Positions 25,035 through 40,042 of a stretch of DNA of 64,000 nt are shown piece after piece (position 1 is the stretch's first letter; each line of letters begins with the position of its first letter). Origin of the DNA: a virus; IMG/VR virus record IMGVR_UViG_3300021957_000009, positions 1 to 64,000 of that record. One strand, given 5' to 3'. A model generated the notes under the pieces. The model did not search any database and was not told where the DNA came from. It worked only from the letters and a program-made list of their open reading frames with translations. The position numbers were made by a program, and so were the translations under genes.

Positions 25035-25613
25035 CCCTTTTGTCAATAAACTTAAACATTTATCTCGATTAAAGTTTACAAATGGTTCATATTTCTCGAT
25101 CAATCTACGAGTATCAGGCCATACAATGGTATCCGATATGTTCTTAGACTCACGATCAATGAACTTAAATATGGCGTTAAGAATAACAACAGTCTCTAAA
25201 CTAATCTCTTCTTGCAGCCATAACTTTACCACAAGAGGATGTGCATTGTCACCTGTCTTAAACAAGTAATCAAATGACACATTCTCTTCTGTTAATCTAT
25301 TTATATCAATAGAAAACACACGATGAATACTTTCTTGAATTCGTTTGTGCTCTCTATAGTTTTGTTCTCCCTCTTCATCCATCATATCACCAATGTAACT
25401 TTTACCAGCTTTAAAGTTGGCGACATAATAGTCCTTTAGTTCTCCATTGTGCTTACGTCCAAGCTTTGCAAAAAAGTACTTATCCTTGCGTTTAAAGAAA
25501 GAGTTAGGTGTTACGTTAGACTTAAAATTATATTTAACTGCATCATAGCTAGACTCAAAGTGTAGCTTTAATGCATTATATAGCTTGTAAGATTCAAATG
25601 GATCTGTACTCAT
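25023..25613 (-). CDS. 59: gp59 helicase loader
   Basis: This 196-residue protein resembles T4 gp59, which loads the gp41 helicase onto gp32-coated DNA. Matching segments are SSYDAVKYNFKS, FFKRKDKYFFAKLGRK and YIGDMMDEEGEQNYREHKR. T4 gp59 has 217 residues. The gene overlaps gp33 by four bases and lies next to gp32, its partner, as in T4. Confidence 0.85.
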   Translation of the reverse strand: MSTDPFESYKLYNALKLHFESSYDAVKYNFKSNVTPNSFFKRKDKYFFAKLGRKHNGELKDYYVANFKAGKSYIGDMMDEEGEQNYREHKRIQESIHRVFSIDINRLTEENVSFDYLFKTGDNAHPLVVKLWLQEEISLETVVILNAIFKFIDRESKNISDTIVWPDTRRLIEKYEPFVNFNRDKCLSLLTKGFTK

Positions 25614-25849
25614 ATTGGTAGCTTATTACCCTTTTTGCCTCTGATTAAATTAAGTCTCATTGCTTCTGCTTCCATCTTATCTTTAAGAGAATCTGTTAGT
25701 AACTTTTTTAAGTTAGTATAATCCATACCTCTCTTTTCTATAATAAATGTAGCTGCGTCTATATAAGACATATTTCCCTTTGCCACTAATTGTTCTACGG
25801 CCGTGGAGAACCGTTTCCTTGTCATAATTTTTTGTTCTAAATCAATCAT
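25610..25849 (-). CDS. 33: gp33-like late transcription co-activator
   Basis: This 79-residue protein matches the core of T4 gp33: KGNMSYIDAATFIIEKRGMD resembles the gp33 segment with MSYLEATTAF, and the C-terminal helix (LKDKMEAEAMRLNLIRG) also fits. gp33 bridges RNA polymerase and the sliding clamp at late promoters, in line with the TATAAATA sites in this window. It is shorter than T4 gp33 (112). Gene order gp32-gp59-gp33 is that of T4-like phages. Confidence 0.75.
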   Translation of the reverse strand: MIDLEQKIMTRKRFSTAVEQLVAKGNMSYIDAATFIIEKRGMDYTNLKKLLTDSLKDKMEAEAMRLNLIRGKKGNKLPI

Positions 25850-26997
25850 AATACCCTAAGTAGTATGCAATCGGCATTAATTCTACCATTAGGAACACTT
25901 ACTTTCGTCGTTAGCGTATCCCACACTTGTTTGTCGATTTGCTTTATTGTTTTACTTAAGATCAATGGCAGTATATCGTCTGGCTTTCTTAAAGTAGTTG
26001 TCCTACTTTTATCGCACACATTCTTTATGGTAGTACCACTTACCTCAAACCCTTTAGTTGAATTTGAGTTATACTGAGTTAGCTTTCTAGTCTTAGTATT
26101 ATAAACAAATAGAACTTCTTTACCAGGAATCATAACAGGATTAATTGACATTAATTTAGCATCGATATCTTCAACCTTATACTTAATATTCTTAACCTGT
26201 ACATCAGAAGCTTTAGGCTTCTTTATCCTTGGAATTCTTGCTGCTTTATTAGCAACCTTTAATTTATCTAAATCTTCGAAGATGGTCTCCATAGTGGTTA
26301 TCATCTTATTTTGATTAGTTCTTTTAATATGAGAGAATGCTTCTACAGCTTGATCACACGTTTTGTCGTATGCATCTTTAACTGGTTGATACTCTTGTTC
26401 AACCATTGACTTAAACATATTAAGTGCTGAACCTTTTAAACCATATTGCTTAAATAGCTTATAGGCATCAAAGTTTACTTTAAAGTTTCCTTCTAACCAT
26501 CCATCAACAACTGCATCCCAATCATCCATAATAGTCTCAAGGATTTTTGCCTTTTGTCTTTGTTGTATTGTAACAACAGGTTTTGCAGCAGCTTTATCTT
26601 CGATCTCTTCAACGGTAACTAACGCTAATTCGTATAGCTCTTTGAATTTTTCTTCTGCTCCTGCTAACTCTTCTTCATTATATTCATAACCTCTATAATG
26701 AATCTTAGTTAACTTACCTAAGTAACCAAACTCATAGTCTTTTAACTTTTTAAAAGCTTTTATCTGATCTTTAGTGTATCCAAATTTTTCTTCTGCAAAC
26801 TGCAATATTGTAGGTACATAGTCTTTGGTCTTATAAAAATAATTATACCAGTGTGCTGCCTTCTGCCATTTAGTAAGACGACCTTCTACGCCTTCGGCAG
26901 TTTCACCTGGTTGAAAGATTGGCTCAGGTCCCATATACTTATCGTCAATGGTTACCCTGTTCTTTCTCATATTAGTTCTTACTTTATTTTCCGCCAT
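25846..26997 (-). CDS. Conserved protein upstream of gp33, function unknown
   Basis: This 383-residue, Lys-rich, mostly helical protein begins with a basic segment, then KWQKAAHWYNYFYKTKDYVP. It overlaps gp33 by four bases and is the first gene after an early promoter, so it is made with gp33 and gp59. I see no catalytic motif. It has the look of a conserved marine T4-like protein linked to replication or transcription, but no family can be named. Confidence 0.65.
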   Translation of the reverse strand: MAENKVRTNMRKNRVTIDDKYMGPEPIFQPGETAEGVEGRLTKWQKAAHWYNYFYKTKDYVPTILQFAEEKFGYTKDQIKAFKKLKDYEFGYLGKLTKIHYRGYEYNEEELAGAEEKFKELYELALVTVEEIEDKAAAKPVVTIQQRQKAKILETIMDDWDAVVDGWLEGNFKVNFDAYKLFKQYGLKGSALNMFKSMVEQEYQPVKDAYDKTCDQAVEAFSHIKRTNQNKMITTMETIFEDLDKLKVANKAARIPRIKKPKASDVQVKNIKYKVEDIDAKLMSINPVMIPGKEVLFVYNTKTRKLTQYNSNSTKGFEVSGTTIKNVCDKSRTTTLRKPDDILPLILSKTIKQIDKQVWDTLTTKVSVPNGRINADCILLRVL

Positions 26998-27026
26998 AGT
27001 TTGCTCCTTTCATAATATTAGAATAC

Positions 27027-27055
27027 ATTATAACACAGTCTTGCGCAAATGTACA
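27027..27055 (-). promoter_or_regulatory. Early promoter, TGTACA-17-TATAAT
   Basis: On the minus strand TGTACA (27055-27050) and TATAAT (27032-27027) are 17 bases apart, 30 bases before the ATG at 26997. A long inverted repeat lies immediately upstream. Confidence 0.7.
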
Positions 27056-27057
27056 TA

Positions 27058-27110
27058 GGCAGGACACACTTTTTTCAAATGATAAGGAGTAGATTAAAGT
27101 GTGCCCTGCC
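27058..27110 (-). terminator. Long inverted repeat between early genes, possible terminator
   Basis: Arms of 15 bases (27058-27072 and 27096-27110) pair with one mismatch around a 23-base loop. It lies just after the stop of the 75-aa gene and just before the next promoter, as a terminator would. No U-run follows on the minus strand, so a processing or stability hairpin is also possible. Confidence 0.5.
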
Positions 27111-27116
27111 ATAAAC

Positions 27117-27344
27117 TTATACCCTCTCGTAATTCTTGATGCCGCTAACATAATTCTCTGCAGCATTTTCTGCATACATTTCGTTATGAGCTTTATACCA
27201 TTCAATACCTAATGACTCTCCATCGATATACATACGTATACCGTAGTATGGATGATCTCCAAATGATCTTAATACTTCAGCTTTACGATTCTTAAATTCG
27301 CTAGAACCACTGTACTCACTGAGTAGCATATACTTACTTGACAT
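27117..27344 (-). CDS. Small early protein, unknown
   Basis: This is a 75-residue mixed-charge protein, rich in Tyr and Glu (HPYYGIRMYIDGESLGIEWY). It overlaps the upstream membrane-protein gene by 11 bases and is the last gene before the inverted repeat. No family recognised. It lies in a run of small early genes that in T4-like phages often act on the host. Confidence 0.55.
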   Translation of the reverse strand: MSSKYMLLSEYSGSSEFKNRKAEVLRSFGDHPYYGIRMYIDGESLGIEWYKAHNEMYAENAAENYVSGIKNYERV

Positions 27345-27546
27345 CGCCGTTTCCCCACATTTCTTTTAGTTTTACGTATGTTAATACGCGGATTTGTTCA
27401 CGATCTAGATCCGGATGTTTTTCTCGCAACTCTTTACGAACTTTATGTTTTACTTCGGAATCACGTATCATGAGATACGCACCTCCACATGTAAACGCGA
27501 AGAATACTAATCCGACTAGTGTGAATATTGTTGATAAAATTTCCAT
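27334..27546 (-). CDS. Small single-span membrane protein
   Basis: Of 70 residues, 4-26 form one hydrophobic span (STIFTLVGLVFFAFTCGGAY), followed by a charged cytoplasmic tail. It lies in the early block between two soluble small proteins. Function unknown. Confidence 0.55.
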   Translation of the reverse strand: MEILSTIFTLVGLVFFAFTCGGAYLMIRDSEVKHKVRKELREKHPDLDREQIRVLTYVKLKEMWGNGDVK

Positions 27547-27547
27547 A

Positions 27548-27853
27548 TTATTTTCCTATATGTTCCACGTCTTTTCGTGGAATAACTTGATATGCACCTT
27601 TATTATATGCTGGTGCGACTGTGAAATTCTTGGATTCTTCTGCTTTCCAAGAGGTGTCTTCAGGAGTCTCGTACCGAGAACTTCCTGTATAAGATGGATA
27701 TTTGTTGTTAAACTCTTCCATCCTTATTTCTGCAAAAGACTTTTCCGTCTTAAGCGGTTTGAATTCTTGTTTGACCTTACGCTTTGGCGCAAGTGCTTTT
27801 GTTTTTCTTTTACGACCGTGTTGATCGTACCTTATTGAGCCTATGTAGTTCAT
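27548..27853 (-). CDS. Small basic early protein, unknown
   Basis: This 101-residue protein is Lys/Arg-rich in its first half (DQHGRKRKTKALAPKRKVKQ) and polar in the second. It overlaps the upstream gene by four bases. The composition suggests nucleic-acid binding, but no motif is seen. Confidence 0.55.
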   Translation of the reverse strand: MNYIGSIRYDQHGRKRKTKALAPKRKVKQEFKPLKTEKSFAEIRMEEFNNKYPSYTGSSRYETPEDTSWKAEESKNFTVAPAYNKGAYQVIPRKDVEHIGK

Positions 27854-28068
27854 ATGGTATTAGGAGCCTCAAGTAATAACTGACTAAGTGTTTTTTCTTC
27901 TGATACAATCACAAATGTGCCATCACGAAATTCACGCGTAACTAATCCAGAGTTATATGCTTTTTCTATATATCCCTTTTGTCCTAGAATATACTCAATT
28001 TGACCTGCCCATGACTCTACAGCCATTTTCCGCCTTTGATATTCTACCGCATCAGTGTATTGTGTCAT
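27850..28068 (-). CDS. Small early protein, unknown
   Basis: This 72-residue protein probably has a helical start (YQRRKMAVESWAGQIEYILG) and a short beta part (EFRDGTFVIVSEEK). It overlaps the neighbours on both sides. No family recognised. Confidence 0.5.
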   Translation of the reverse strand: MTQYTDAVEYQRRKMAVESWAGQIEYILGQKGYIEKAYNSGLVTREFRDGTFVIVSEEKTLSQLLLEAPNTI

Positions 28069-28210
28069 ATGAACTCCTTCCTAATTCCGCTATTCTTATT
28101 AGCTCTCTTAACTTTTGATCCCATAGTTTCTTAAACTCAGGATTTTGCGCTCTATCACGAGCTTCTCTGAGAGCTATAACTCTTGCTATTGTTCTACTAG
28201 TCCCAGTCAT
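28052..28210 (-). CDS. Tiny early protein (52 residues)
   Basis: The open frame fills the space between two other small genes, starting at the ATG at 28210 inside the end of the upstream gene and ending 17 bases inside the next. The product is Arg/Glu-rich and helical (REARDRAQNPEFKKLWDQK). Tight overlaps and protein-like composition support it. Function unknown. Confidence 0.5.
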   Translation of the reverse strand: MTGTSRTIARVIALREARDRAQNPEFKKLWDQKLRELIRIAELGRSSYDTIH

Positions 28211-28466
28211 TCTTCATTTCATTGTATACATCCATATACGAAGATCCTGCAATATAGTCTTGGGTCTCCTTATCAGTGTAATACATGTTTTCTTCTTTAA
28301 AGCATTCCAGCGAACCTGGAGATTGACGTGCTGCTTTCTTCATTGAAGTAGTCAGCCTTGGAGCTTTATACTTTGGTTTAGAGTAAACTTTGTTTACTGC
28401 TGTTTTAAATTCTTTTGCTACGCGAGCCTTTTCTGCGGCCGCTTTAATCATTGCTAGTCTATCCAT
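28197..28466 (-). CDS. Small early protein, first gene of its transcript
   Basis: This 89-residue protein has a Lys/Ala-rich helical N-terminus (AAAEKARVAKEFKTAVNKVY) and an acidic C-terminus. It is the first gene behind the promoter at 28493-28521. Function unknown. Confidence 0.55.
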   Translation of the reverse strand: MDRLAMIKAAAEKARVAKEFKTAVNKVYSKPKYKAPRLTTSMKKAARQSPGSLECFKEENMYYTDKETQDYIAGSSYMDVYNEMKNDWD

Positions 28467-28492
28467 AATCTATTCCTTTTAAATATTAGTAT

Positions 28493-28521
28493 ATTATATC
28501 ACAGTGTACAGTGAATGTACA
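28493..28521 (-). promoter_or_regulatory. Early promoter, TGTACA-17-TATAAT
   Basis: On the minus strand TGTACA (28521-28516) and TATAAT (28498-28493) are separated by 17 bases, with an A/T-rich stretch upstream of the -35. The ATG at 28466 follows after about 20 bases of leader. Confidence 0.75.
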
Positions 28522-28529
28522 CAGTTATT

Positions 28530-28748
28530 TTAATTAATTTCTTCTACAGTAATCCTGTATTTTTTGCCATTGATGTCTGAACATTCAATAGTCTTTTTTG
28601 TTGTTTGCATCCAACCTTCTTTATGAAGGTCCATCTTGACTCGATCAACACTATCAATCAAACCATTAGAGTTATCAGAATCTACCTGAAGTCCAGGTTT
28701 AATAATAGTGTGTGCAATGTAGTCACAATATGCCATAGTAAAAGCCAT
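28530..28748 (-). CDS. Small early protein, unknown
   Basis: This is a 72-residue protein (TMAYCDYIAHTIIKPGLQVD, then a beta part KKYRITVEEIN). It overlaps the upstream stop by one base (TAATG), so it is coupled to the acidic 104-aa protein. No family recognised. Confidence 0.5.
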   Translation of the reverse strand: MAFTMAYCDYIAHTIIKPGLQVDSDNSNGLIDSVDRVKMDLHKEGWMQTTKKTIECSDINGKKYRITVEEIN

Positions 28749-29062
28749 TACGCCAAGTCCTCGTCTTCGTACTCGTTAGCATCAAAGTCCGCTGGATGGT
28801 CGAAACTTTCATCCATGACATAACCCATGGATTCCTCCATATCTGCCTGTTCGGCAGCATTTTGTGGTGGGAACAGACTAGCCCAATCTGCCGGCGTATA
28901 GCCGGAGATTAAGAACTCCCTCTGATCCACGGTCGCTTCAGGCATTGCATCCTGAATAAGAGCACCGCCTGCTTGCCACAGAGCAAATTGCTCTGGAGTA
29001 GCATTGACGCTCATGATGTTTTTTACACCAGTCATCGGACTTGTTTTTTCACATAAAATCAT
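28748..29062 (-). CDS. Acidic conserved T4-like small protein
   Basis: The 104-residue protein carries a block typical of a conserved marine T4-like family (MSVNATPEQFALWQ, then GGALIQDAMPEATVDQREFL, then SGYTPADW). The C-terminus is strongly acidic (DANEYEDEDLA). An alternative start at 29014 would begin at MSVNATPEQ, but GGGTGA before 29062 favours the longer form. Function unknown. Confidence 0.6.
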   Translation of the reverse strand: MILCEKTSPMTGVKNIMSVNATPEQFALWQAGGALIQDAMPEATVDQREFLISGYTPADWASLFPPQNAAEQADMEESMGYVMDESFDHPADFDANEYEDEDLA

Positions 29063-29063
29063 A

Positions 29064-29285
29064 TTATTTCACCCATACTTTGTTATACTTTGACGGAAGA
29101 TTCTCACATGAGAACTCGTCGTTCTTTGCGTAATTTACTACGCCAACACACTCATTGGTAGTGTTAGACCAATATACGTCTGGAAGATCCAGAGCGGTTT
29201 CTAAGGCGCTTACGCTAAACCCTAGTACCATACCAGCTGCTGAACCTAGTACAACAGCTTTAATTTTGTCTTTATTAGTCAACAT
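29064..29285 (-). CDS. Small exported or membrane-anchored protein
   Basis: This 73-residue protein has an N-terminal hydrophobic segment (AVVLGSAAGMVLGFSVSA) followed by a Cys-containing domain with VYWSNTTNECVGVVNY and FSCENLPSKYNKVWVK, a pattern I associate with conserved small proteins of marine T4-like phages. The two cysteines could form a periplasmic disulfide. Function unknown. Confidence 0.6.
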   Translation of the reverse strand: MLTNKDKIKAVVLGSAAGMVLGFSVSALETALDLPDVYWSNTTNECVGVVNYAKNDEFSCENLPSKYNKVWVK

Positions 29286-29286
29286 A

Positions 29287-29559
29287 TTACGCTACCTCCA
29301 ACATTCCAAGAGGACAGTTCCAAAGTTTACCGTCAATTCTCACAACAGCTTTTGTTCTGTTAATCTTAGTGACTTCACCAAATTCAACACCGTTTTTACT
29401 GTTGAGCTTTACTTGAACACCAACAAAAAGCGAAGACTTAACACCTTGAGCTTTAATCGCTCTTAGTTGTTTTTGCTTAATTTTAATCAGTTCGATAACC
29501 TCATTCATTTCATCAGTAGAGTTGATTGAGTTGATTGCGTTTAGTATAGATTTTTTCAT
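29287..29559 (-). CDS. Small early protein with KOW/SH3-like C-terminus
   Basis: This 90-residue protein has a helical N-terminal half (STDEMNEVIELIKIKQKQLR) and a C-terminal beta part (VQVKLNSKNGVEFGEVTKIN) that resembles a small SH3/KOW-like barrel. It is the first gene behind the promoter at 29595-29623. The fold is inferred from pattern only. Confidence 0.55.
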   Translation of the reverse strand: MKKSILNAINSINSTDEMNEVIELIKIKQKQLRAIKAQGVKSSLFVGVQVKLNSKNGVEFGEVTKINRTKAVVRIDGKLWNCPLGMLEVA

Positions 29560-29594
29560 AATTTAGATTCCTTATCAATTTTGTTTATGGGTAT

Positions 29595-29623
29595 ATTATA
29601 CCATGCTTTTTAGGGTTTGTACA
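29595..29623 (-). promoter_or_regulatory. Early promoter, TGTACA-17-TATAAT
   Basis: On the minus strand AAAAAAGTG precedes TGTACA (29623-29618), then 17 bases, then TATAAT (29600-29595). The A-tract is shared with other promoters of this family. Confidence 0.75.
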
Positions 29624-29664
29624 CACTTTTTTAATAAATAGTATATAGTTTCTATACGTATTTG

Positions 29665-30081
29665 TTATATAAAACACTTTTTATATAACTCTTCTTCACG
29701 TTTGTATGCCTCACGTTCCCATGGAGCATTTTCATATTTGTAGTTACGTGGCTTTTTACCCTTCCACGAATGGTTATATCCATTCAGTTCACCACGCAAA
29801 TATTGCTTGGCATGTACCATTTCATGAGCTAGTGTTTGCATCATAGATTCGTATGAAAGCTTTTCACCGTCGGATTTGCGTGCTATAGACATATCAACAT
29901 AACCCTCTTTTGGATCGCCCCAACATAACCCTTGGCTATCGTTATCGAGAGTAGTTTTAAAGTTAATGAAGATACACTTTGAATACATGCGGTTGATACC
30001 AAGCTCTTTGCAAAGAGCATGTGCGTATTCGTAGACTTTCTTTTTGTCTTTGATTTGACCTTTGATTCTAATCTGTGGCAT
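29665..30081 (-). CDS. SprT-like zinc metalloprotease
   Basis: This 138-residue protein carries the zincin motif LAHEMVHAKQYL (HExxH at about residues 92-96), then a downstream WEREAY segment that could give the third ligand. It resembles SprT-like domains, which in cells cut proteins crosslinked to DNA. It lies alone behind its own early promoter. Role in the phage unknown; action on host proteins or DNA-protein crosslinks is possible. Confidence 0.75.
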   Translation of the reverse strand: MPQIRIKGQIKDKKKVYEYAHALCKELGINRMYSKCIFINFKTTLDNDSQGLCWGDPKEGYVDMSIARKSDGEKLSYESMMQTLAHEMVHAKQYLRGELNGYNHSWKGKKPRNYKYENAPWEREAYKREEELYKKCFI

Positions 30082-30107
30082 GACTGACTCCGCGTTAATA
30101 TGTGTAT

Positions 30108-30136
30108 ATTATACCCCAGTTTCTAGTAGATGTACA
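30108..30136 (-). promoter_or_regulatory. Early promoter, TGTACA-17-TATAAT
   Basis: On the minus strand TGTACA (30136-30131), 17 bases, TATAAT (30113-30108), 27 bases before the ATG of the SprT-like gene. It lies just downstream of the cyclase gene, so it restarts transcription after the curli-like operon. Confidence 0.75.
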
Positions 30137-30176
30137 CAACTATTTTAGCTATTTTTAGATCATTTTGTTATATAGA

Positions 30177-32021
30177 CTATAACTTTGGTGAATAAATGGT
30201 TATAAGCTCTTCTTTGCCCTTTACCTTGATTTTACCTATTTCCTTGCACTTATACTCATTCGGAAGCTGTTCTTGAGTATATGATGATATGATTGTCTTA
30301 TAGTCTACATACTCATGTCGTGCGGCAGTTGCCTCGAGACGGGCTGCAAGATTGACTGCATCTCCAATGACTGAGTAATCGAATCTGGATTCAGAGCCCA
30401 TGTTACCAACAATGCAATCCCCGGTGTTAACGCCAGTACCGACATTAATATCAGGAAGGCCTCTTGATTTATATACCTCTTTAAGTTCATTGGTTTTAGC
30501 CTCTATTTCTATTGATGATTTGACTGCCATTTCAGCATGGTTATCACAAGGCAATGGTGCATTCCAGAATGCCATGATACAGTCGCCCATGTATTTGTCT
30601 ATGGTTCCACCGTTGTTTAATATGATTTTAGTCATAGCATCTAAGAATTCATTAACCAATTCTACTAATCCTTCTGGATCGTCATTGTTTTTATAGTGCT
30701 CTGATATTGGAGTAAACCCACATATATCCATAAACAAGAAAGACATCTCTTTACGATCTCCTCCTAACCTTAACAACTCAGGATTCTTTTGTAGTAGATA
30801 CACCTGCTTCGGATCTAAGTAAGTTTCAAATTGCTTTTTGATCTGCTGTCTTAACATGAATTGCTTATAGAAATTACTGAAGCTTGATGAAGCAAATGTC
30901 ATTATATATAATATCATTGAGTAAGTCATATCAAGGAGAATCTGAGATTCGTACCAGAAGTAGAAAGAAGCGCCAACTGAAGATGCAACAGTCGCAAAGA
31001 AGATTATCATCGACCAAACAATTGGAAGGTGGTATACAGCTAAGACGATTACCAGAGCACCAATTGACATTACCAGGATTTCAAGAAGGTCTGTCCACAC
31101 AGGACGAGAGATGGAAACTTCATCCATTATTGACTGAATGGCAGCAGCCTGAATCTGATGAGCAGGCATTAATCCAGCTGGAGTTGGAATTTGTGAAGCC
31201 AGACCCTTTGCAGTCAGACCAATAAAGACAGCTTGACCACCAAGATTTGGTAACTCACTGCCGTATTCTATCTCTGTAAATTTATAGTTAGGATTAATCC
31301 AAAAAGAACCATTCGCATCTGAAGGTATTCTAAAAGGTCGTATTATAACTTCTTCCACACCTACTTCATTTACTTTTATTGTATAAGATAATCTATCCTG
31401 CATAACTCTTATTGTTTCTAATGCGAACGAAGGATATAATTCATCATTGATTTGTGACACAAGAGGAATTCTTCTTACTAATCCATCAACCTCTGGCATA
31501 GCATTAATTAAACCATGACCCCATGCTTCTTTTTCTAACTGAGGTATATTGGTAACAAGGCCATCATATTTGATTAACCAGTCTAATGGATCTCCGGAAC
31601 CAAATGTGACAGTACCAACATAAGGTGCAGTTTTACTTCTACCATCTGGATCTGCATCTTGAGCAAGTATAACACCATTAGAGTTTATCCACGAAGCAAA
31701 TACTTCATCACCAGCAAACCTATCAGCTTCCGGAAACATAATAGTAAATCCTATCATTCCGGCATTTGCTTCTCGTAAGTCTGATAACATTTGAGCATAT
31801 TGATGCCTTGGAAACGGGTATTGCCCATACTTGGCTAATGCTTCTTCACCGATATTTAATAGTACTACTCCGTTACCAAAATCAGTCTCTGGAATAGTTC
31901 TTATATAACTGTCAAAAGTGTTAAGTCTTAATTGTTCTACTGGAGTTGGATCTGACACTCTTATACCGATAAGCAAAGAGGCTAATATGATTGTGGTCCA
32001 TATTGATGTTAAGTATTTCAT
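30177..32021 (-). CDS. Membrane CHASE2-class III adenylate/guanylate cyclase
   Basis: This 614-residue protein is a full sensor cyclase. An N-terminal span (about 5-23) leads to an extracytoplasmic CHASE2 domain (about 25-305; FDSYIRTIPE, GNGVVLLNIGEEAL, PFPRHQYAQMLSDLREANAG). Three spans follow (about 308-395), then a class III cyclase domain (426-614). The metal-binding Asp432 (FMDICGFT) and Asp480 (DKYMGD), base-selecting Lys476, and transition-state Asn557/Arg561 (GDAVNLAARLE) are all present, so it should be active, probably on ATP. It is the last gene of the curli-like operon. CHASE2 cyclases commonly neighbour FecR proteins in bacteria, so joint transfer from a host is likely. A phage-encoded one is unusual. 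Confidence 0.9.
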   Translation of the reverse strand: MKYLTSIWTTIILASLLIGIRVSDPTPVEQLRLNTFDSYIRTIPETDFGNGVVLLNIGEEALAKYGQYPFPRHQYAQMLSDLREANAGMIGFTIMFPEADRFAGDEVFASWINSNGVILAQDADPDGRSKTAPYVGTVTFGSGDPLDWLIKYDGLVTNIPQLEKEAWGHGLINAMPEVDGLVRRIPLVSQINDELYPSFALETIRVMQDRLSYTIKVNEVGVEEVIIRPFRIPSDANGSFWINPNYKFTEIEYGSELPNLGGQAVFIGLTAKGLASQIPTPAGLMPAHQIQAAAIQSIMDEVSISRPVWTDLLEILVMSIGALVIVLAVYHLPIVWSMIIFFATVASSVGASFYFWYESQILLDMTYSMILYIMTFASSSFSNFYKQFMLRQQIKKQFETYLDPKQVYLLQKNPELLRLGGDRKEMSFLFMDICGFTPISEHYKNNDDPEGLVELVNEFLDAMTKIILNNGGTIDKYMGDCIMAFWNAPLPCDNHAEMAVKSSIEIEAKTNELKEVYKSRGLPDINVGTGVNTGDCIVGNMGSESRFDYSVIGDAVNLAARLEATAARHEYVDYKTIISSYTQEQLPNEYKCKEIGKIKVKGKEELITIYSPKL

Positions 32022-32093
32022 ACGTATATATCTATATATATTCCTCGACCACCATTAGGAGATCCGTACTTATAAAGAATATACCGAGCTCGG

Positions 32094-32864
32094 TTATTCT
32101 TGCAGTACTGATACATTACATCCACCAAAAGTCATACAATCAATGCTTAGATTATATGTTTGGTTCATAGTACTCATTTGTTTTAAAATTAAATCTGTTC
32201 CGTATAAACCATCAAGTGTTACGTTTGCGTTGTGTGTTGCACCGTTACCTTTTTGACGAATAAACACATCGTTCTCGTCATTATATATTGCTAAATCTGT
32301 GTTCTTACTACCGTTGCTTTGTTGCTTTATTTGAACTTTATTATTATCGCCTGCTAAGTGCAAATCAAAGTCATGGCCATCCGATGCACCAGTTTGGTTT
32401 GTTTGTTGAACTGCTAATTGATTGTAGTCACCGTACATAGTAATATCTATTTCGTGGCCACCACTCTCATAGTCATCCACCCACCAAGTTAAATCAGTAT
32501 CAGAATCAAGTGTAGTCCATGCAGCACCTTGAGCAAGTTTCATCTGATTACCTGTACCACTCAATTCATCAAAGGTGATTTCATTGGGAAGTCCACCTGT
32601 TGTTGTATTAATCTGCACTAAATACATATCTAGGCTTGATACTGTAATATATGAATTAGCGTCTAACATCTTAATATTATTATTAAAACCATATTGGTCA
32701 ACACCTAATTGAAGGTTATCGCCAGATTGTTCTAATGATATTACGTTATCATCAGCATTTGCAAATAGTGGTGCTATAAGTAGCGACAATACAATAATAG
32801 GCCAAAATAAAACACTTACCCATATTAAAGCTTTCATTGAATATTCTTCTAATTTATCTAACAT
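32094..32864 (-). CDS. Secreted curlin-repeat protein B
   Basis: The 256-residue protein has a long signal segment (MKALIWVSVLFWPIIVLSLL, cut near LFANA) preceded by nine residues. The mature part opens with two curlin-type repeats (ISLEQSGDNLQLGVDQYG), matching the start of the other curlin protein here, and later has GDYNQLAVQQTNQ, GDNNKVQIKQQSNG and NDVFIRQKGNGATHN, all of the N-x-V-x-I-x-Q-x-G-x-x-N type. Two Cys lie near the C-terminus (CMTFGGC). It may act as major subunit or as CsgB-like nucleator; which one cannot be told. AGGTGA precedes the ATG at 32864, two bases after the FecR stop. Confidence 0.75.
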   Translation of the reverse strand: MLDKLEEYSMKALIWVSVLFWPIIVLSLLIAPLFANADDNVISLEQSGDNLQLGVDQYGFNNNIKMLDANSYITVSSLDMYLVQINTTTGGLPNEITFDELSGTGNQMKLAQGAAWTTLDSDTDLTWWVDDYESGGHEIDITMYGDYNQLAVQQTNQTGASDGHDFDLHLAGDNNKVQIKQQSNGSKNTDLAIYNDENDVFIRQKGNGATHNANVTLDGLYGTDLILKQMSTMNQTYNLSIDCMTFGGCNVSVLQE

Positions 32865-32865
32865 A

Positions 32866-33975
32866 TTAATTCACCTGATTTATATAGATGAGGATATCTT
32901 CACCCTCATTTCCTGTAATTATTCCATCCCATGTCGGTGTAATTGTATCTACTGTAAAGTTGCCGCCTGCTCCAAATTTAAGTCTAATTACGCCATTAAT
33001 GTTTCTATATAGTACTAAAGATCCGTCTTGTAAAAACACATTAAACTGTGATTCGTCGTTAAACCCTCTTGTCGCACCTTTGATATCAAATTCACCTAAT
33101 GTATCAAATAGATCTGAACTATCTATAATGTCTAATACATCAACTAAAAATTCTACATCTAATTCATCAATATCTAATTCATTGAATTCGTCAAGAGTAT
33201 CTTCTTCTAATTCGTCTTCTTCTAACTCAGTAAACTCTAAAAAATCTACATCTAATAGGCCTTGATCTTCATTCGTGTCGTCAGCCATTTCTTCTTTTAT
33301 CCTCTCCTTTACTTCTTCAGGAGGTGATACAATAAACATGTTGTCAATTAATGATGGTGTAATACCGTTAACTTTAATTGATTGTGTTGGTGATGAATCT
33401 AATGAAGATACCATTGTTGCGGCATAGGCTTCGTTTAATGTAACTACTCCACCTTCATTAGAAACTACTATCTCACCAGATGGATCACCATTCTCATCTG
33501 GTAGTAATATGATTAGGCTTCTACCTAATTCATCTACTGTTGTTGTAAAATCAGTTCCCCGTACGGCAATTGAGGCCGTAGGAGTCTTGATATCAATATT
33601 GGCTTTATTTACTAATCCTAATCTTCCGGATGCAAATCTAGCTGTACCCATTGTAAACTTCATACTCATCTTCGAGAGTGAAGGATCAGGGTCATAATAT
33701 ATTTCGTCTATTAGTACTTCAGAATGTTCTTTTAAAGATAGTTGAGCTTTATCTAAAAACTCAATAAGCATTCTTCCGTTACCAGTTTTTGCTTCATCGT
33801 TTAGTTCTATAGGTATCTGCTTAGATACTTTTATCTCTTCATTGTTACGCACAATCTGGCTTACGCCAGTCGACTCTACTATGTCACCAATGGAATCAGC
33901 ATAGGCGATTCCAGTGATGAATAGTAAGCTAAGAATCCCCAGCTGCGTCTTTTTGATTAATTTGTACAGTAGCAT
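32866..33975 (-). CDS. Exported FecR-domain protein
   Basis: The 369-residue protein has a signal peptide (KKTQLGILSLLFITGIAYAD), then a FecR domain (about 30-190) with the family motif IDIKTPTASIAVRGTDFTTT, then a very acidic linker (about 245-285, ELEEDELEEDTLDEFNELD) and a C-terminal domain with FQDG-like strands. Classical FecR relays signals to an ECF sigma factor; no sigma factor or TonB receptor gene is near. This stand-alone secreted type is often beside CHASE2 cyclases, as here, and may be the periplasmic partner sensed by that cyclase. The gene starts inside the curlin A gene (47-base overlap). Confidence 0.85.
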   Translation of the reverse strand: MLLYKLIKKTQLGILSLLFITGIAYADSIGDIVESTGVSQIVRNNEEIKVSKQIPIELNDEAKTGNGRMLIEFLDKAQLSLKEHSEVLIDEIYYDPDPSLSKMSMKFTMGTARFASGRLGLVNKANIDIKTPTASIAVRGTDFTTTVDELGRSLIILLPDENGDPSGEIVVSNEGGVVTLNEAYAATMVSSLDSSPTQSIKVNGITPSLIDNMFIVSPPEEVKERIKEEMADDTNEDQGLLDVDFLEFTELEEDELEEDTLDEFNELDIDELDVEFLVDVLDIIDSSDLFDTLGEFDIKGATRGFNDESQFNVFLQDGSLVLYRNINGVIRLKFGAGGNFTVDTITPTWDGIITGNEGEDILIYINQVN

Positions 33976-34669
33976 TGTCTGATGTAATATCTAAATTGAT
34001 GATAGCATTAGGAGTTGCACAAGGTGAACCTCCTACACAAGTACCTGAAATCTGATTAATATCAATGTCACCACTATCTCCATTCCACTCTACAGTCAAT
34101 GATTGAGAACCATCGTTTTGTAATGTGTTGAAGTTATTGCTGTCACCAGTAATATCAAAGTTCCAAGTTACATCATCAGATTCAAAATCTAAATCAAATA
34201 TATTTGAACCACCTAACAGAATTAAATCTGCATCTAATCTTTCTGCACTTGCACCAACTTTACCTTGATCTATATCAAATGTATTACTGTCTCCAGTAAT
34301 AGCGAAATCGTAGTTAGAATCGTCTGAACTTCCAGTGTATCCAATGTTCCAATCAACTTCGTTTGAATCACCTGTTAACGTAAAAGTTAAATCAGAGTTA
34401 TTCATGTCAATTGGTCCATATATCAAGTTTTGATTTCCTATCATATCGATATCGAATGTTAAACCTGAACCTACAATAGTCATATCAGAACCGGAACTAG
34501 TAAAATCTTCTAAACCGATTTTGTTACCATATCCAACCTGATCAATATACAACGTTAATGTATCACCGCTTTGTTCTATCATAATTTCGTTATCGTCAGT
34601 TGCTTGCGCGAAAATAGAATTTGCTGTAAATAGAAATAGCACTGCTGCTATACTAGTTAATTTCTTCAT
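33929..34669 (-). CDS. Secreted curlin-repeat protein A
   Basis: Starting at the ATG at 34669 (preceded by AGAGGA), the product has 246 residues: a signal peptide (MKKLTSIAAVLFLFTANSIF, cut near AQA) and an Asp/Asn/Gly/Ser-rich body with repeats of curlin type. The first pair (IMIEQSGDTLTLYIDQVG) closely matches the first pair in protein B; later copies include GDSNTFDIDQG, GDSNNFNTLQND and DNATVQINQKD, mostly at about 20-25 residue spacing. This fits a beta-solenoid amyloid subunit exported through CsgG. An in-frame TTG at 34714 would add 15 residues and spoil the signal. One Cys pair lies near residue 210 (CVGGSPC). Confidence 0.75.
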   Translation of the reverse strand: MKKLTSIAAVLFLFTANSIFAQATDDNEIMIEQSGDTLTLYIDQVGYGNKIGLEDFTSSGSDMTIVGSGLTFDIDMIGNQNLIYGPIDMNNSDLTFTLTGDSNEVDWNIGYTGSSDDSNYDFAITGDSNTFDIDQGKVGASAERLDADLILLGGSNIFDLDFESDDVTWNFDITGDSNNFNTLQNDGSQSLTVEWNGDSGDIDINQISGTCVGGSPCATPNAIINLDITSDNATVQINQKDAAGDS

Positions 34670-35618
34670 TTTTCGTTTCCTCTTTGTTTGCATGCCTTTC
34701 GTTTTTCCCATCAACTTGATGAGGATGCCTATGGCCTGCGGTTAAATCCCAGAACTTACGGTCGTGGCCCTGGTAGATTAATTCCAGTACAGCAGCTTCA
34801 ATAGCTGACCGTACTGCATACGTCACTGACTCATTATTTCCCACTCCGTCCTCATACTCGATAAGTTGCGTGCCTTGTTCATAGAACCTAAACACATCAC
34901 CCGACGAGCCGTAAGAAAGTACCGATTTCTTAGCTTGGACGTTTAACAAAACTTCACCTGTCAATACAGACACTGCTCTCACAGATACTGTAACAACATC
35001 TTTACGATACATCCTACTAAAACCTATGCCAAGAGTTCTTGCGCCTCGGCCTCCAGTTTCCATATTCGTATCATAACCTATAATACCACCCTCAATAATC
35101 ATTCCTGCAAATAAGAGTGGGCCAACACCATTTGGTTCTACACCATTAGCTTTAGCGACATCTTGACGAGTAGATCTTACTATTTGTCTTTCTCGTACAA
35201 GATTGTCTATTCCTTGCCTTTCTACTACTCTAAACCAGGTTCCTCCACCTGCTGTTTTGAGAGCATCTATTAACATTTCAGTACCGCCTTGGGTAACTGC
35301 AGTAGAAAACGATGCTATATTATCTACTGATTTTCTTTGACCTGTTAAATCTTTAAATCCATACACTGCAACTACTGGTTGAACCTTTGCTGCCGGCAAA
35401 TTGAGAAGATCCACAAACGCTGGAAGCTTTACAGCTTCTGGGGCATCAACACATATATACTTTCTGGCCATTGCCTTTTGTATACCCATTTGCGCATGCC
35501 TATTAAAACCTTCATCATATTTGCCATCAAGATCATTGCAATCCTGAGGGTTATTACTCCACTGTGGAACAGATGCGCATCCACTAAGTAGTAGTAATAC
35601 TAATATGTACTTACCCAC
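34653..35618 (-). CDS. csgG: CsgG-like curli secretion pore lipoprotein
   Basis: The protein (321 residues from GTG 35618, with AGGA eight bases upstream) has a lipobox LLLLSGC (Cys14) and matches E. coli CsgG through the whole core: VVAVYGFKDLTGQRK, ASFSTAVTQGGTEMLIDALK, WFRVVERQGIDNLVRERQI, IIEGGIIGYDTNMETGGRGA, VRAVSVLTGEVLLNVQAKK and SAIEAAVLELIYQGHDRKFW. CsgG forms a nonameric outer-membrane channel. In the constriction loop the Phe56 equivalent is kept, but Tyr51 and Asn55 are not and the loop is one residue longer, so the pore may differ. A 45-residue insertion lies after the lipobox. It overlaps csgF by 8 bases and curlin A by 17. Confidence 0.92.
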   Translation of the reverse strand: MGKYILVLLLLSGCASVPQWSNNPQDCNDLDGKYDEGFNRHAQMGIQKAMARKYICVDAPEAVKLPAFVDLLNLPAAKVQPVVAVYGFKDLTGQRKSVDNIASFSTAVTQGGTEMLIDALKTAGGGTWFRVVERQGIDNLVRERQIVRSTRQDVAKANGVEPNGVGPLLFAGMIIEGGIIGYDTNMETGGRGARTLGIGFSRMYRKDVVTVSVRAVSVLTGEVLLNVQAKKSVLSYGSSGDVFRFYEQGTQLIEYEDGVGNNESVTYAVRSAIEAAVLELIYQGHDRKFWDLTAGHRHPHQVDGKNERHANKEETKNEEIN

Positions 35619-36123
35619 CGTCTGAATCCTGGCCAAAGTTGCCAGTTCCTACTGGTATCTCAATAACTGTAGTTGTTCCATCGGAATCTACAATTGTCAT
35701 TTTAATAAACTCTGAACCATCTTCGTTTGTCATAACTTCATATGTTACTACATTACCTTCTAAAGTAAATGAGCCATATCGAACAGATCCATCATTACTA
35801 AACATAGATTCGACAAGTTGTTTAGACATTTGAGCATATATTCTACTCTCTAAATTACGTATAAACTTAGCCATAGTTGTATTTGCTTCTTCTCTTTCCG
35901 CTGCTTTTCTTGCTGCCTCTAAAGCATCTACTATAGCTTTTTTCCTTGTATGTTCTATATTATCAACTGTTAAATAATGTGCTCCAGTTCCAACTCCACT
36001 AAATGATGGATTTTTAAAGCCAAATTTTATTTCATCTGCTTGTACTACAAGGCTTTGTAAAGCCAATACAAACATTCCAGTTAACAATACATCTTCAATT
36101 TTTATCTTCATTTTTACTCTCAT
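35611..36123 (-). CDS. csgF: CsgF-like curli assembly factor
   Basis: This 170-residue exported protein (signal IEDVLLTGMFVLALQSLVVQ, cut near ADE) begins its mature part with IKFGFKNPSFSGVG, matching the CsgF N-terminus (FQFRNPNFGG) that plugs into the CsgG channel. It continues with RNLESRIYAQMSKQLVESMF and the beta part SFTLEGNVVTYEVMT and TTTVIEIPVG, as in CsgF. In bacteria CsgF couples secretion to nucleation at the surface. It has an extra charged helix (about 60-85) compared with E. coli. Start at 36123 or 36111 is possible. It overlaps the upstream membrane-protein gene by 29 bases. Confidence 0.88.
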   Translation of the reverse strand: MRVKMKIKIEDVLLTGMFVLALQSLVVQADEIKFGFKNPSFSGVGTGAHYLTVDNIEHTRKKAIVDALEAARKAAEREEANTTMAKFIRNLESRIYAQMSKQLVESMFSNDGSVRYGSFTLEGNVVTYEVMTNEDGSEFIKMTIVDSDGTTTVIEIPVGTGNFGQDSDGG

Positions 36124-36373
36124 TTATCTTCTTCTGCCTTTCTCTATATTCTAAAACGACCTTTACCTTTTCTTGTAGTCGTATCATATCCTGATCAAGC
36201 ATTCTAATTTGATCAATAAGTCTTATAAGGCCCATGTGCATTTCTTCAAGCTTTGGATCTAGTTCTTCATTAATGAACTTCCATATAAAAAACACGAAAT
36301 AAGCCATTCCTACAATGGCTACAGTCGTAAATCCGTACTGCTCGATTAAAACCGCTGGATTTAAGGCGTCCAT
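36095..36373 (-). CDS. Small membrane/coiled-coil protein, holin-like
   Basis: The 92-residue protein has one span (about 14-32, TTVAIVGMAYFVFFIWKFI) and a long charged coiled-coil tail (LEEMHMGLIRLIDQIRMLDQ onward). This plan fits small holin-like or XhlA/BhlA-type proteins. It lies between the endolysin region and csgF and overlaps csgF, so the lysis-type genes and the curli-like genes appear to be one transcript. A role as scaffold for the CsgG/F machine cannot be excluded. Confidence 0.6.
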   Translation of the reverse strand: MDALNPAVLIEQYGFTTVAIVGMAYFVFFIWKFINEELDPKLEEMHMGLIRLIDQIRMLDQDMIRLQEKVKVVLEYRERQKKINESKNEDKN

Positions 36374-36374
36374 A

Positions 36375-36671
36375 TTAATCCCTTCGGACGTCTATTTTAC
36401 CGTCTTCCACAAAGTTTTCTGATCGAGCAATTCTATCGATAGGTGGAGTTAACTCTAAAGCACTAGATACTAACATATCGATCTTTATTATTTCGTTATT
36501 CATTGTTCGGGCTCTATTTTCTAGGCCCTTTGTGAATATATTAAGGGTGTCTATTTGGTCTAAAACTCCTGATAGCATTTGCTTTATAATCGTAAATATA
36601 AAGAACCCAGACGCTAAAGCGCCTGCAATGGGTAATCCTACATCACTGATTAAACCAAATATATCTGGCAT
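36375..36671 (-). CDS. Second small membrane/coiled-coil protein
   Basis: This 98-residue protein has one span (about 9-33, DVGLPIAGALASGFFIFTII) and then an amphipathic helix (LDQIDTLNIFTKGLENRART). It resembles its downstream neighbour in plan, not in sequence. The pair could form a holin/antiholin set with the lysozyme two genes upstream. It shares a TAATG overlap with the upstream gene. Confidence 0.6.
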   Translation of the reverse strand: MPDIFGLISDVGLPIAGALASGFFIFTIIKQMLSGVLDQIDTLNIFTKGLENRARTMNNEIIKIDMLVSSALELTPPIDRIARSENFVEDGKIDVRRD

Positions 36672-36916
36672 TAGCTACTTTTAGCGATACTGACAGCTTT
36701 AAGACCGGCACCACCTTCCAAGGTATCTGCTGGCATCTTAGAAACCAATTCAATTGCTTTACTTGGAATTGTCATAGTTCCTAAAACCACTGCACCCAAT
36801 TTTTGAGTCATGACAACATCCGCAGCAGTACTATTATATACTCTTACTAATGTCGCTTTACCCATATCGGTAGCTGATGTTAAGTCGCCCTGACTTCCTA
36901 ACAATTTAATTTTCAT
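36671..36916 (-). CDS. Small beta-rich protein, possibly structural
   Basis: This 81-residue protein (MKIKLLGSQGDLTSATDMGK, then VRVYNSTAADVVMT and TIPSKAIELVSKMPADTL) has the pattern of a small beta sandwich. A good Shine-Dalgarno (AGGAG) precedes it. I recall similar short proteins in marine T4-like phages near fibre genes; function unknown. Confidence 0.55.
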   Translation of the reverse strand: MKIKLLGSQGDLTSATDMGKATLVRVYNSTAADVVMTQKLGAVVLGTMTIPSKAIELVSKMPADTLEGGAGLKAVSIAKSS

Positions 36917-36928
36917 CTTTTTCTCCTG

Positions 36929-37120
36929 TTATGAACTAACTAAATTTAGCTCTTCTAAACTTTTATGCCAATCTGAGTATCTGAAAAGTCCCTGCTTTTC
37001 ATGACACCAAAACCAACCTTTACTTTTTTGTTCTTCTTGCGGTATACTAGATTCGACCTTTAAAGGGCCTCTAGTCTTCCCATAAGTCGTTCTGCTCTGT
37101 TCGTTACTTGCTTGTACCAT
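36929..37120 (-). CDS. Small protein overlapping the endolysin 3' end
   Basis: The 63-residue frame begins inside the lysozyme gene (61-base overlap) behind GGAGAG and fills the gap that follows. The second half looks protein-like (KGWFWCHEKQGLFRYSDWHK). Without it the gap of 143 bases would be unusually long for this genome. Function unknown; it may be spurious. Confidence 0.45.
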   Translation of the reverse strand: MVQASNEQSRTTYGKTRGPLKVESSIPQEEQKSKGWFWCHEKQGLFRYSDWHKSLEELNLVSS

Positions 37121-37530
37121 CTTGAATCTCTCCCCTCAACAGCCGCAACCGGCCAATCACCACACTGCAGCGCTGCATTGTGCTTTTTAAATTTACTTAA
37201 GCGCGTAAGTCCCATGTTGAACATCATGTTCGCAATGACTTGTTTCACTTCTTGTGGATATCCATCCCATGCATCGTGTAATTTTTTACAATCTTCGATT
37301 ACTGTTTCTACATCCTTGGCAAAGCATGATATAACTCTATCCTCTGAGACATCAGTACCGACCGGAAGCCCAAATTCTGGGTCTCCTTCGATAACCAGGT
37401 GTCCAATACCAAATGTAGCATAACCGAGGTGATCATGATAAATTTCATTAACTTGTCCCTCGTCTATAATTAATTGTTCTCTTAATTGATCTACATCAAT
37501 CACCGTTTTTTCTTCTTTGTCCCAAAACAT
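37060..37530 (-). CDS. e: T4-type lysozyme (endolysin)
   Basis: This 156-residue protein matches T4 lysozyme: LIIDEGQVNEIYHDHLGYAT keeps the catalytic Glu/Asp/Thr triad spacing (Glu-x8-Asp-x5-Thr), followed by FGIGHLV, and the C-terminal half has QVIANMMFNMGLTRLSKFKK. It cuts cell-wall glycan from within at the end of infection. It has no signal peptide, so it needs a holin, for which the two membrane proteins downstream are candidates. AGAGGA precedes the ATG. Confidence 0.9.
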   Translation of the reverse strand: MFWDKEEKTVIDVDQLREQLIIDEGQVNEIYHDHLGYATFGIGHLVIEGDPEFGLPVGTDVSEDRVISCFAKDVETVIEDCKKLHDAWDGYPQEVKQVIANMMFNMGLTRLSKFKKHNAALQCGDWPVAAVEGRDSRWYKQVTNRAERLMGRLEAL

Positions 37531-37660
37531 TTTCTTTCCTCTTAAATTTATTATTTATCTCAAATAATAATTGTTCTTTTTTAACAACCTGCCAAAACTT
37601 CTTATCTACTTCTTTAAATAAATCAGTCTTATACTGTTGTTCTTGTGTATGCTTTAACAT
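37496..37660 (-). CDS. Tiny charged helical protein
   Basis: From the ATG at 37660 (GGA upstream) the product has 54 residues, nearly all charged and helical (YKTDLFKEVDKKFWQVVKKE). It overlaps the fibre-like gene upstream and the lysozyme start downstream by about 30 bases each. Plausible but unsupported by homology. Confidence 0.45.
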   Translation of the reverse strand: MLKHTQEQQYKTDLFKEVDKKFWQVVKKEQLLFEINNKFKRKENVLGQRRKNGD

Positions 37661-38492
37661 GAGTAATTTCCTTAGATGTAGTATTATATACACAGCCCCA
37701 AATAAATAACATTGGCTCTATCGTATCATCATCAGTATCATACGGGAAGGTATAAGAGTTTGCTGTACACCATTCTCGTACTATTGTTGCATCTGCTTGA
37801 AAATAAACATCAACATTTGCATCAACATTATTAGACTTATCATGTATTCTAGCAAAGAATGTGTAACTACATGCAGGTAATAAATCATGTATTTCTTGCC
37901 ATGCATTAATGTCTGTATTTTTCATTTCTTCATCTGAAATTACAAACTTTGCCAAAACTGTTTCAGTTACTGTATCAAATTTAAGGCCGTACCAATCTTT
38001 ATATTCGTTATAAGTTGCGTTGAATGTTGTTTTAATTGTGTCTGTTGGAACATCAAAGTTATAGAATGAGATACTAGGATTACTATCATAAGGTGGTCTT
38101 GCTGCCGTATATTCTGCAACTAGATTCTGATTATTATTATCATAAGAAGCTACTTCATCTGGCCATGTAGCTTCTAATTTAGTTACTATAGCTTGGCCTT
38201 GTGTTGTACCCACAGCATAATCTACTCTTACTGAACTTCCACCCATGTAAGTAGTGTCCATAATTTGAGAAGTATCAATAGTCTCTATCCTTTCTAACTG
38301 AGAGTTTACCGAGCCTATCATTTCGTGATAAGCTTTTAATGCTTTTTTTTCAGACCATGTTTCATCTACTTCGATTCCAGTATTATTTAGCTCTGATGGA
38401 GTTTCTACTAATGCTCCATTACTATCGGTAATTTTAGTAGTAAATCCACTTGGGCTTTCTAAATTTTCTGTGTGTGTATATGTTATAGTCAT
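37629..38492 (-). CDS. Probable structural or fibre-associated protein
   Basis: This is a 287-residue soluble protein, with a helical middle (SEKKALKAYHEMIGSVNSQL) and a beta-rich remainder (ISFYNFDVPTDTIKTTFNAT). It directly follows the Ser/Thr/Gly-rich fibre protein with no gap, so the two are likely made together. Fibre chaperone or attachment protein are both possible. No family recognised. Confidence 0.5.
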   Translation of the reverse strand: MTITYTHTENLESPSGFTTKITDSNGALVETPSELNNTGIEVDETWSEKKALKAYHEMIGSVNSQLERIETIDTSQIMDTTYMGGSSVRVDYAVGTTQGQAIVTKLEATWPDEVASYDNNNQNLVAEYTAARPPYDSNPSISFYNFDVPTDTIKTTFNATYNEYKDWYGLKFDTVTETVLAKFVISDEEMKNTDINAWQEIHDLLPACSYTFFARIHDKSNNVDANVDVYFQADATIVREWCTANSYTFPYDTDDDTIEPMLFIWGCVYNTTSKEITHVKAYTRTTV

Positions 38493-39782
38493 TTATTCTA
38501 TCTCTACAAAGGTTGAAGTTGAAGATGTACCAAAATAAGTTGCCAGTGAAAAAGCGTTTGAGTAAGTCCACTGTGCTAAACTCGAGCCGGAGCTGGTATA
38601 AAAAGTAAAAGATGTCCTAGCTAAAGTAAGATCCGGACTTCCACTGTTATTTGTTTGATTTAGCCAAAATTTTATATTAGTCCAACCACTGTTATTAAAT
38701 GTTCCAGTAGAGCTATCTGTTCGCGAAAAGGTGATGCCCATGGTTCCATTGAAATTACGCAAAATCGTAAGATCAACAGTATCACCGTCATATGTAAAAC
38801 TACTTCCGCTCCAGGATCCTTGAGATAGACCATCAACGTACCCGCTATACGCTGGCGAATATTGTGCAGGTGCACTGTAGTAGCTAGTCATTGTTCCGGA
38901 AGTTAGAGCTGTGACTATATCTACCTTTGTTTTACCTAAGAAGTCTGAAAACGCTATTTGTCCACTTGTTGGTATACCCGTTGTGTCATGTAAAGTACCT
39001 CCAGGTGTTCGATAGTAATCTGAAAGAGCAACATTAGAACTATCTGCTCCACCAAACTCTTCTGCAATTCCATTATTAACGGTTGTTGTAACATCAGGCC
39101 CCATAATTTCAAAACCTGATGTGCCAGAAGTATACATACTATCAATCCCGTTATTACTAGTTGTGCTATTATATTCCCATGCCCAAGCGGTGCAACCATT
39201 ACTACTAGAAGAATAGTGAGCGCTACTTCTAGTAAAAGTATAGGCAGTGCCACTACCAGTAAGTATAAGAGATTTAAATGTATTATCAGTATTAGGTACA
39301 CTAGTTCCATTTAATACAAATATTACCCAGTGTCTAGTGTTATTGGGTGAAGGTGAAGACCCAGGATTTCCAAAAATAATTGCTCTAATAGTTCTTGTAT
39401 TACTACTTGCGTCGGTATAGTACGTAGCGCCAATACTTCCAAATGTTGAGGTAGGTTCATAAATAAATGAAGGGATATTGCTCCTTACACCGTTGGCGCC
39501 GATTGGAAGTGAGTCTATCAATAGGCTGAGTATAGGAAGGGAAGTACCACTCATCCACCGTGTACTGACACTGGTACCGCTCTGATAGCCTCCTACTTGG
39601 CCTTGCCATTCCACCTTATTACCAAAAGTATCGCCGCCGGGTAATTCGTATTGGCACGTAACATTAGTATAAGTGTCCTGTCCACGAGTTAAAGCATCGC
39701 TTTCTAATGAATTAGCCGCAGTAGTAGAACTATTAGTTCCAGCGTCTTGTAGTGCTAGAGCTCCGGATGCTAGTAGTGTCAT
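38493..39782 (-). CDS. Ser/Thr/Gly-rich tail-fibre-like protein
   Basis: The 429-residue protein is very rich in Ser, Thr, Gly and Asn, and has the phrase PTSGQIAFSDFLGK, which is common in phage fibre and receptor-binding proteins as a collar between domains. The C-terminal 130 residues (SGSSFTYDGDTVDLTILRNF) form a beta-type domain and may be the tip. It overlaps the upstream 87-aa gene (ATGA) and is read from the late promoter at 40071. Confidence 0.65.
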   Translation of the reverse strand: MTLLASGALALQDAGTNSSTTAANSLESDALTRGQDTYTNVTCQYELPGGDTFGNKVEWQGQVGGYQSGTSVSTRWMSGTSLPILSLLIDSLPIGANGVRSNIPSFIYEPTSTFGSIGATYYTDASSNTRTIRAIIFGNPGSSPSPNNTRHWVIFVLNGTSVPNTDNTFKSLILTGSGTAYTFTRSSAHYSSSSNGCTAWAWEYNSTTSNNGIDSMYTSGTSGFEIMGPDVTTTVNNGIAEEFGGADSSNVALSDYYRTPGGTLHDTTGIPTSGQIAFSDFLGKTKVDIVTALTSGTMTSYYSAPAQYSPAYSGYVDGLSQGSWSGSSFTYDGDTVDLTILRNFNGTMGITFSRTDSSTGTFNNSGWTNIKFWLNQTNNSGSPDLTLARTSFTFYTSSGSSLAQWTYSNAFSLATYFGTSSTSTFVEIE

Positions 39783-40042
39783 TTAATAATCTCCGTAATT
39801 AAATCTTCAAACTGTTCTATTTTAGCCACTCTGTTTGGCCATAGAATATATTCCTTTTCAGGATTCTTTTTTAAATTTGTTAAAAGGGGAAGTATAGAGT
39901 TATAAAGCTTGTTTAGCTTATCCTCTAATTCTTGCGCGGTTGCTGAAGCTGTTGATGCCTCAGTCTTTACTGATTGTACGGCTTCAAGCTCGTTTTCATC
40001 AACGGCTGTAAAACCAAAATCAAAATCTAATAAATCACTCAT
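39779..40042 (-). CDS. Conserved small T4-like protein
   Basis: This 87-residue acidic protein (MSDLLDFDFGFTAVDENELE, then a helix, then NLKKNPEKEYILWPNRVAKI) has a C-terminal segment that I recognise as conserved in marine T4-like phages, but the function is not known to me. It has AGGAG before the ATG and an exact TATAAATA late promoter 28 bases upstream, so it is a late protein and the first gene of this transcript. Confidence 0.65.
   Translation of the reverse strand: MSDLLDFDFGFTAVDENELEAVQSVKTEASTASATAQELEDKLNKLYNSILPLLTNLKKNPEKEYILWPNRVAKIEQFEDLITEIIK

Follow-up and report, generated by a model that had tools for sequence, protein, structure and literature searches.

Why does a marine phage carry the gene for a membrane-bound nucleotide cyclase with a sensor domain of its own, and what might that sensor report? 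The question is raised by positions 30,177-32,021, minus strand, of the window, by which we mean the whole stretch of DNA analysed (64,000 nucleotides, positions 1 to 64,000 of the IMG/VR virus record IMGVR_UViG_3300021957_000009). The original prediction described an intact CHASE2-class III cyclase in a phage, a source of cAMP (or cGMP) that could reprogram host catabolite or surface regulation, possibly in step with curli-like export. On balance, we lean towards the reading that the gene encodes a working, membrane-anchored adenylyl cyclase under CHASE2 control, which would supply the signalling output of a viral cassette for curli export and be fed by the status of periplasmic FecR and curli.

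A CHASE2 sensor joined to a class III cyclase

The open reading frame starts with ATG and encodes 614 amino acids: a single membrane span at the N-terminus leads into a CHASE2 domain, followed by three further spans and a class III cyclase domain. Pfam places CHASE2 at residues 16-324 (E 4e-40) and Guanylate_cyc at residues 424-608 (E 7e-20), both far past the cut-off. The AlphaFold2 model, built from 20 viral sequences (mean pLDDT 83), presents a helix at 7-23, a CHASE2 region at 52-300, helices at 309-331, 334-359 and 366-398, and a cyclase domain at 425-612; its residues 537-552 are of low confidence and the active-site geometry was therefore not taken from it. Pfam and the model helices agree on the layout of the CHASE2 receptor family, with the sensor held between the N-terminal span and the three later ones, and the catalytic half matches CyaB, CyaC and OaPAC both in PDB sequence hits and by Foldseek on the model. 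An intact CHASE2-class III cyclase, with its sensor domain and membrane spans complete, was thus correctly recognized, and so was its phage setting, since the 101,046-base record contains baseplate, gp32 and RNR genes. A search for RNA elements gave no Rfam match.

The catalytic residues first proposed (Asp432, Lys476, Asp480, Asn557 and Arg561) proved right in identity and in numbering: D432 lies within FMDICGFT, K476 and D480 within DKYMGD, and N557 and R561 within VNLAAR, while S550 is the second base-recognition residue. The protein therefore has the two metal-binding aspartates (D432, D480) and the transition-state Asn/Arg (N557, R561) of a class III adenylyl cyclase, together with an adenine-type pair (Lys plus Thr, Ser or Asp, not the guanylyl pair). 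Among 83 viral cyclases, the window sequence included, D432, K476, D480 and R561 are kept throughout and S550 and N557 in 82, the exception being the phage Melnitz. A K/S base-recognition pair in class III cyclases favours ATP over GTP, and the K476/S550 pair predicts an adenylyl rather than a guanylyl cyclase; judged from these residues, the proposed output narrows to cAMP and cGMP is disfavoured. We infer that the enzyme would be catalytically active. In the alignment of viral cyclases, 68 of the 190 positions of the cyclase domain are invariant, versus 21 of 286 in CHASE2, and pairwise dN/dS ranges from 0.03 to 0.17 for those computed pairs with unsaturated dS. The gene is under strong purifying selection, and relatives are encoded on at least 599 stretches of viral contigs.

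The same catalytic domain is matched by the PADLOC PycC profiles (best 2e-24), which brings up a role in defence or counter-defence, the enzyme being Pycsar-like (producing cCMP or cUMP) or supplying a decoy nucleotide against host defence. These matches, however, span the general class III fold only, the purine-recognition pair K476/S550 is conserved, and neither the CHASE2 domain nor the consistent curli linkage described below fits such a role. No Pycsar effector was recognized (PADLOC profiles were run on two neighbours), the surrounding genes being those for curli, FecR and phage functions. On the K476/S550 pair and these neighbours, we regard a Pycsar identity as unlikely and give the whole defence explanation very little weight.

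The curli-export cassette and its last gene

The genes upstream of the cyclase lie on the same strand, overlapping or closely spaced, and their order, CsgF-CsgG-curlin-FecR-curlin-cyclase, fits the viral (pelagiphage) T8SS module. The first of them encodes CsgF (35,611-36,123, minus strand; Pfam CsgF 7e-14) and the second the outer-membrane curli secretion channel CsgG (34,653-35,636, minus strand; Pfam CsgG 1e-51). A CsgA/B-like curlin-repeat protein follows (33,929-34,714, minus strand; Pfam Curlin_rpt E 0.001, slightly short of the curated cut-off), whose position is conserved, and then a FecR-domain protein (32,866-33,975, minus strand; Pfam FecR 4e-8) with an N-terminal signal sequence and a single hydrophobic segment at 12-30, predicted to be periplasmic. 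Next to the cyclase lies a second CsgA/B-like curlin-repeat protein with a signal or anchor N-terminus (32,094-32,864, minus strand; Curlin_rpt E 0.0016, again slightly short of the curated cut-off), which HTVC008M, Melnitz and most viral loci have in this place too.

Directly before csgF stand two small related frames on the minus strand, both of the function-unassigned family PHROG 18771 and with an apparent membrane segment: one of 92 amino acids that overlaps the csgF start (36,095-36,373; one such segment) and, upstream, one of 98 amino acids (36,375-36,671). They adjoin the cassette and are candidate members at most. A look-alike precedes csgF in another viral-type contig (L095). Podoviruses have short 'histidine kinase' genes at this place, according to PMC9599517; in the two proteins of the window, Pfam found no kinase domain. 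Occurrences of the putative late promoter TATAAATA were at chance number, with none within 25,306-40,060, and sigma-70-like sites were also near their chance number.

The linkage of these genes was followed in both directions. Wherever a viral cyclase locus extends 5.5 kb or more upstream (39 loci), CsgF, CsgG, curlin and FecR are all present, and 35 loci have exactly the window's order with two curlins. Conversely, the cyclase ends the cassette in 38/38 viral csgG loci that extend 6.5 kb or more downstream, drawn from close relatives of the window csgG; the two samples share some contigs. The suggested tie to curli-like export thus held in every sampled viral locus with enough flank, and the sampled cassettes invariably contain the cyclase, always as the last gene. 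Other cassettes, especially of podoviruses, can be without a cyclase (PMC9599517).

The viral cassette or its cyclase is also carried by MAGs assigned to Bacteroidota, Synechococcus, Rhodobacteraceae, Pirellulales and others (L084-L089, L091-L095). We rejected these as a bacterial source of the cassette: their gene content, low G+C and contig context look phage, as expected of contigs misbinned into MAGs, a reading that draws on a gene-by-gene view for part of the set.

Another role has been suggested for the pore. The Melnitz paper (PMC9004378) proposes that CsgGF acts in the timing of lysis; the cyclase could by extension serve chiefly to drain ATP or perturb the membrane in connection with that timing, and any cAMP would be incidental. 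Conservation of the sensor domain and of the base-recognition residues points instead to a regulated signal, and we hold this explanation to be improbable.

Several other genes of the window were recorded, all on the minus strand. Just downstream of the cyclase, 29,665-30,081 encodes a small protein, putatively a zinc metallopeptidase by weak, sub-threshold Peptidase_M91/SprT-like matches, a homologue of which lies near the cassette in L094. Further away are a class II aldolase/adducin-family protein (45,769-46,374; Pfam 6e-23), a ribonucleotide reductase large subunit (48,585-50,900) whose nearest relatives, at about 59%, are in 121Q and other E. coli jumbo phages and not in pelagiphages, and a phage-encoded class 3 lipase (51,278-52,075; Pfam 1e-21).

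FecR, the proposed signal and its reader

In bacteria, FecR adjoins CHASE2 proteins in Bradyrhizobium (L090 and L171, which resembles it), in Sphingorhabdus L117, whose CHASE2 protein resembles a histidine kinase, in L188 and at four of 30 sampled CHASE2 loci. Throughout 474 kb of other loci, the FecR profile matched only beside a cyclase or CHASE2 gene, and most of the sampled bacterial CHASE2 cyclases have no FecR gene close by. Judged from these counts, the pairing appears recurrent, not universal. In Burkholderia, an operon of FecR and a CHASE2-kinase controls biofilm (PMC5192318). Both FecR and a cyclase are missing from five sampled alphaproteobacterial curli loci over the 19 kb examined. 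Given the bacterial pairs and these curli loci, the viral cassette is most simply read as a union of two modules, one for curli export and one formed by a FecR/CHASE2-cyclase sensor. The Bacteroidota MAGs L102, L110, L111 and L113 present tandem arrays of adjacent class III cyclase-like genes, with eight or nine consecutive frames in L102.

The mechanism that we favour would then run as follows. CsgG and CsgF would form an outer-membrane pore through which both curlin-like proteins leave. From the periplasm FecR, perhaps together with the exported proteins themselves, would signal envelope or export status to the CHASE2 domain; the cyclase would in turn produce cAMP inside the infected cell, and this cAMP would act on a target there, probably other than a classical CRP in SAR11-type hosts. 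Contact between FecR and CHASE2 and the direction of the signal are what we infer in this scheme. Residue conservation, dN/dS, the modelled fold, the 39/39 and 38/38 linkage, the FecR/CHASE2 neighbours in bacteria and the Burkholderia and S. meliloti systems all count in its favour. Against it count the nature of the FecR-CHASE2 link, which is one of gene neighbourhood and is missing around most bacterial CHASE2 cyclases sampled, the diverged catalytic domain of Melnitz, and an output for which neither the phage nor almost any of the searched SAR11 genomes has a known reader.

This last point comes from a survey of 147 genomes from the family that includes the MED605 MAG (named Candidatus Pelagibacter); what we take to be the sequence of the SAR11-441R probe matches 86 of them. 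A cNMP-binding domain occurs in 9 of the 147 and is absent from 138, and two of the proteins concerned carry FNR-like cysteine motifs. As a control, OmpR-type regulators were found in 145/147, so the search for regulators works in these genomes. Class III cyclase matches numbered three, one on a phage contig (L091/L131), one of viral type (L132) and one below cut-off, leaving no clear host class III cyclase in the 147 genomes; the survey was directed at class III among adenylyl cyclases and at cNMP-binding domains among cAMP receptors. On the phage side, no cAMP receptor (PF00027) was found in this record, in HTVC008M or in three other large relatives.

These results bear directly on the idea that cAMP from the cyclase enters a cAMP-CRP circuit belonging to the host and so alters catabolite or surface gene expression in infection. 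PMC9599517 draws a comparable parallel with CsgD control in Gammaproteobacteria. CRP is present in many bacteria outside SAR11, the related Melnitz infects OM43, and no host can be assigned to the phage of the window: with about 40% identity to its counterparts in Mosig, Melnitz and HTVC008M alike, the baseplate wedge protein does not single one out. Against the idea stand the 9/147 genomes with the receptor domain and the lack of a clear host class III cyclase, set beside a control regulator in 145/147. Reprogramming of catabolite regulation needs a host cAMP receptor, which SAR11 mostly seems to lack in any known form, and this part of the original prediction is weakened, the domain being missing also from the phage and its four relatives. 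If the host is SAR11, CRP-based catabolite control is unlikely; in another bacterium, such control could well operate. Overall, we consider the host-circuit explanation unlikely, if less so than the defence and lysis ones. Somewhat better placed, and still tentative, is the proposal that the phage installs a full cAMP source in hosts without class III cyclases or classical receptors, where cAMP made on FecR/curli status would act via a novel receptor, phage- or host-encoded. For a SAR11 host, the usual catabolite-control explanation cannot be assumed and the data point to a novel cAMP reader. Because the cyclase is fixed in the sampled cassettes, knowing its trigger and its target would give a direct handle on the function of the cassette.

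Comparison with known systems

Curli genes in pelagimyophages were first described in PMC7029224, and in 2022 PMC9599517 identified curlins, FecR and an adenylate cyclase in the curli (T8SS) module of pelagiphages. The latter paper also gives trees in which viral curlins, FecR and adenylate cyclase are nearest to Alphaproteobacteria, presents metatranscriptomic evidence for viral curli genes and reports CsgE, CsgD and CsgC as absent from viral modules. A phage cyclase of this kind is thus not new: it is present in HTVC008M and Melnitz, where it is annotated, and in many pelagiphages, and the window cyclase, real, conserved and interesting as it is, belongs to an already published viral module. 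The main texts of PMC7029224, PMC9004378 and PMC9599517 make no mention of CHASE2, and the passages of PMC9599517 consulted discuss neither the catalytic residues nor the absence of a cAMP receptor in the host. Our additions are the identification of CHASE2 as the sensor, the recurrent FecR/CHASE2 pairing in bacteria and the receptor survey of the SAR11 family.

For function, the closest analogy is the NsrA/CHASE2 cyclase/Clr system of S. meliloti, in which a signal passed on by NsrA, an outer-membrane protein, makes CHASE2 cyclases raise cAMP, with Clr, a regulator of the CRP family, acting downstream (PMC13001267); on the phage side, no receiver was found. Among viruses, the HTVC008M cyclase (AGE60353.1) shares the gene order, within a T8SS/curli module with FecR and cyclase, and is 46.7% identical over the whole cyclase length, the window coming from a different phage contig with a wedge protein about 40% identical. 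The cyclase of the Methylophilales phage Melnitz (QZI94833.1; L083:9986-12052) shares cassette and position at an identity of only 35% and differs by its diverged catalytic domain, with N557 replaced by S and S550 by D, a sequence divergence suggesting that activity may not persist in all viral cyclases. Bacterial CHASE2 class III cyclases (S. meliloti CyaD1/CyaD2/CyaK type; Bradyrhizobium L090) have the same domain order. The L090 enzyme is 33% identical to that of the window and likewise follows a FecR-domain frame, but there FecR occupies the N-terminal end of a frame that stays open for about 3250 amino acids, and profiles found no curli genes at that locus. Finally, the Burkholderia BiofilmReg operon (a LysM-FecR protein with a CHASE2 histidine kinase) resembles the phage cassette in setting FecR beside a CHASE2 sensor and in its link to biofilm, and departs from it in its output, which is a histidine kinase in Burkholderia and a cyclase in the phage.
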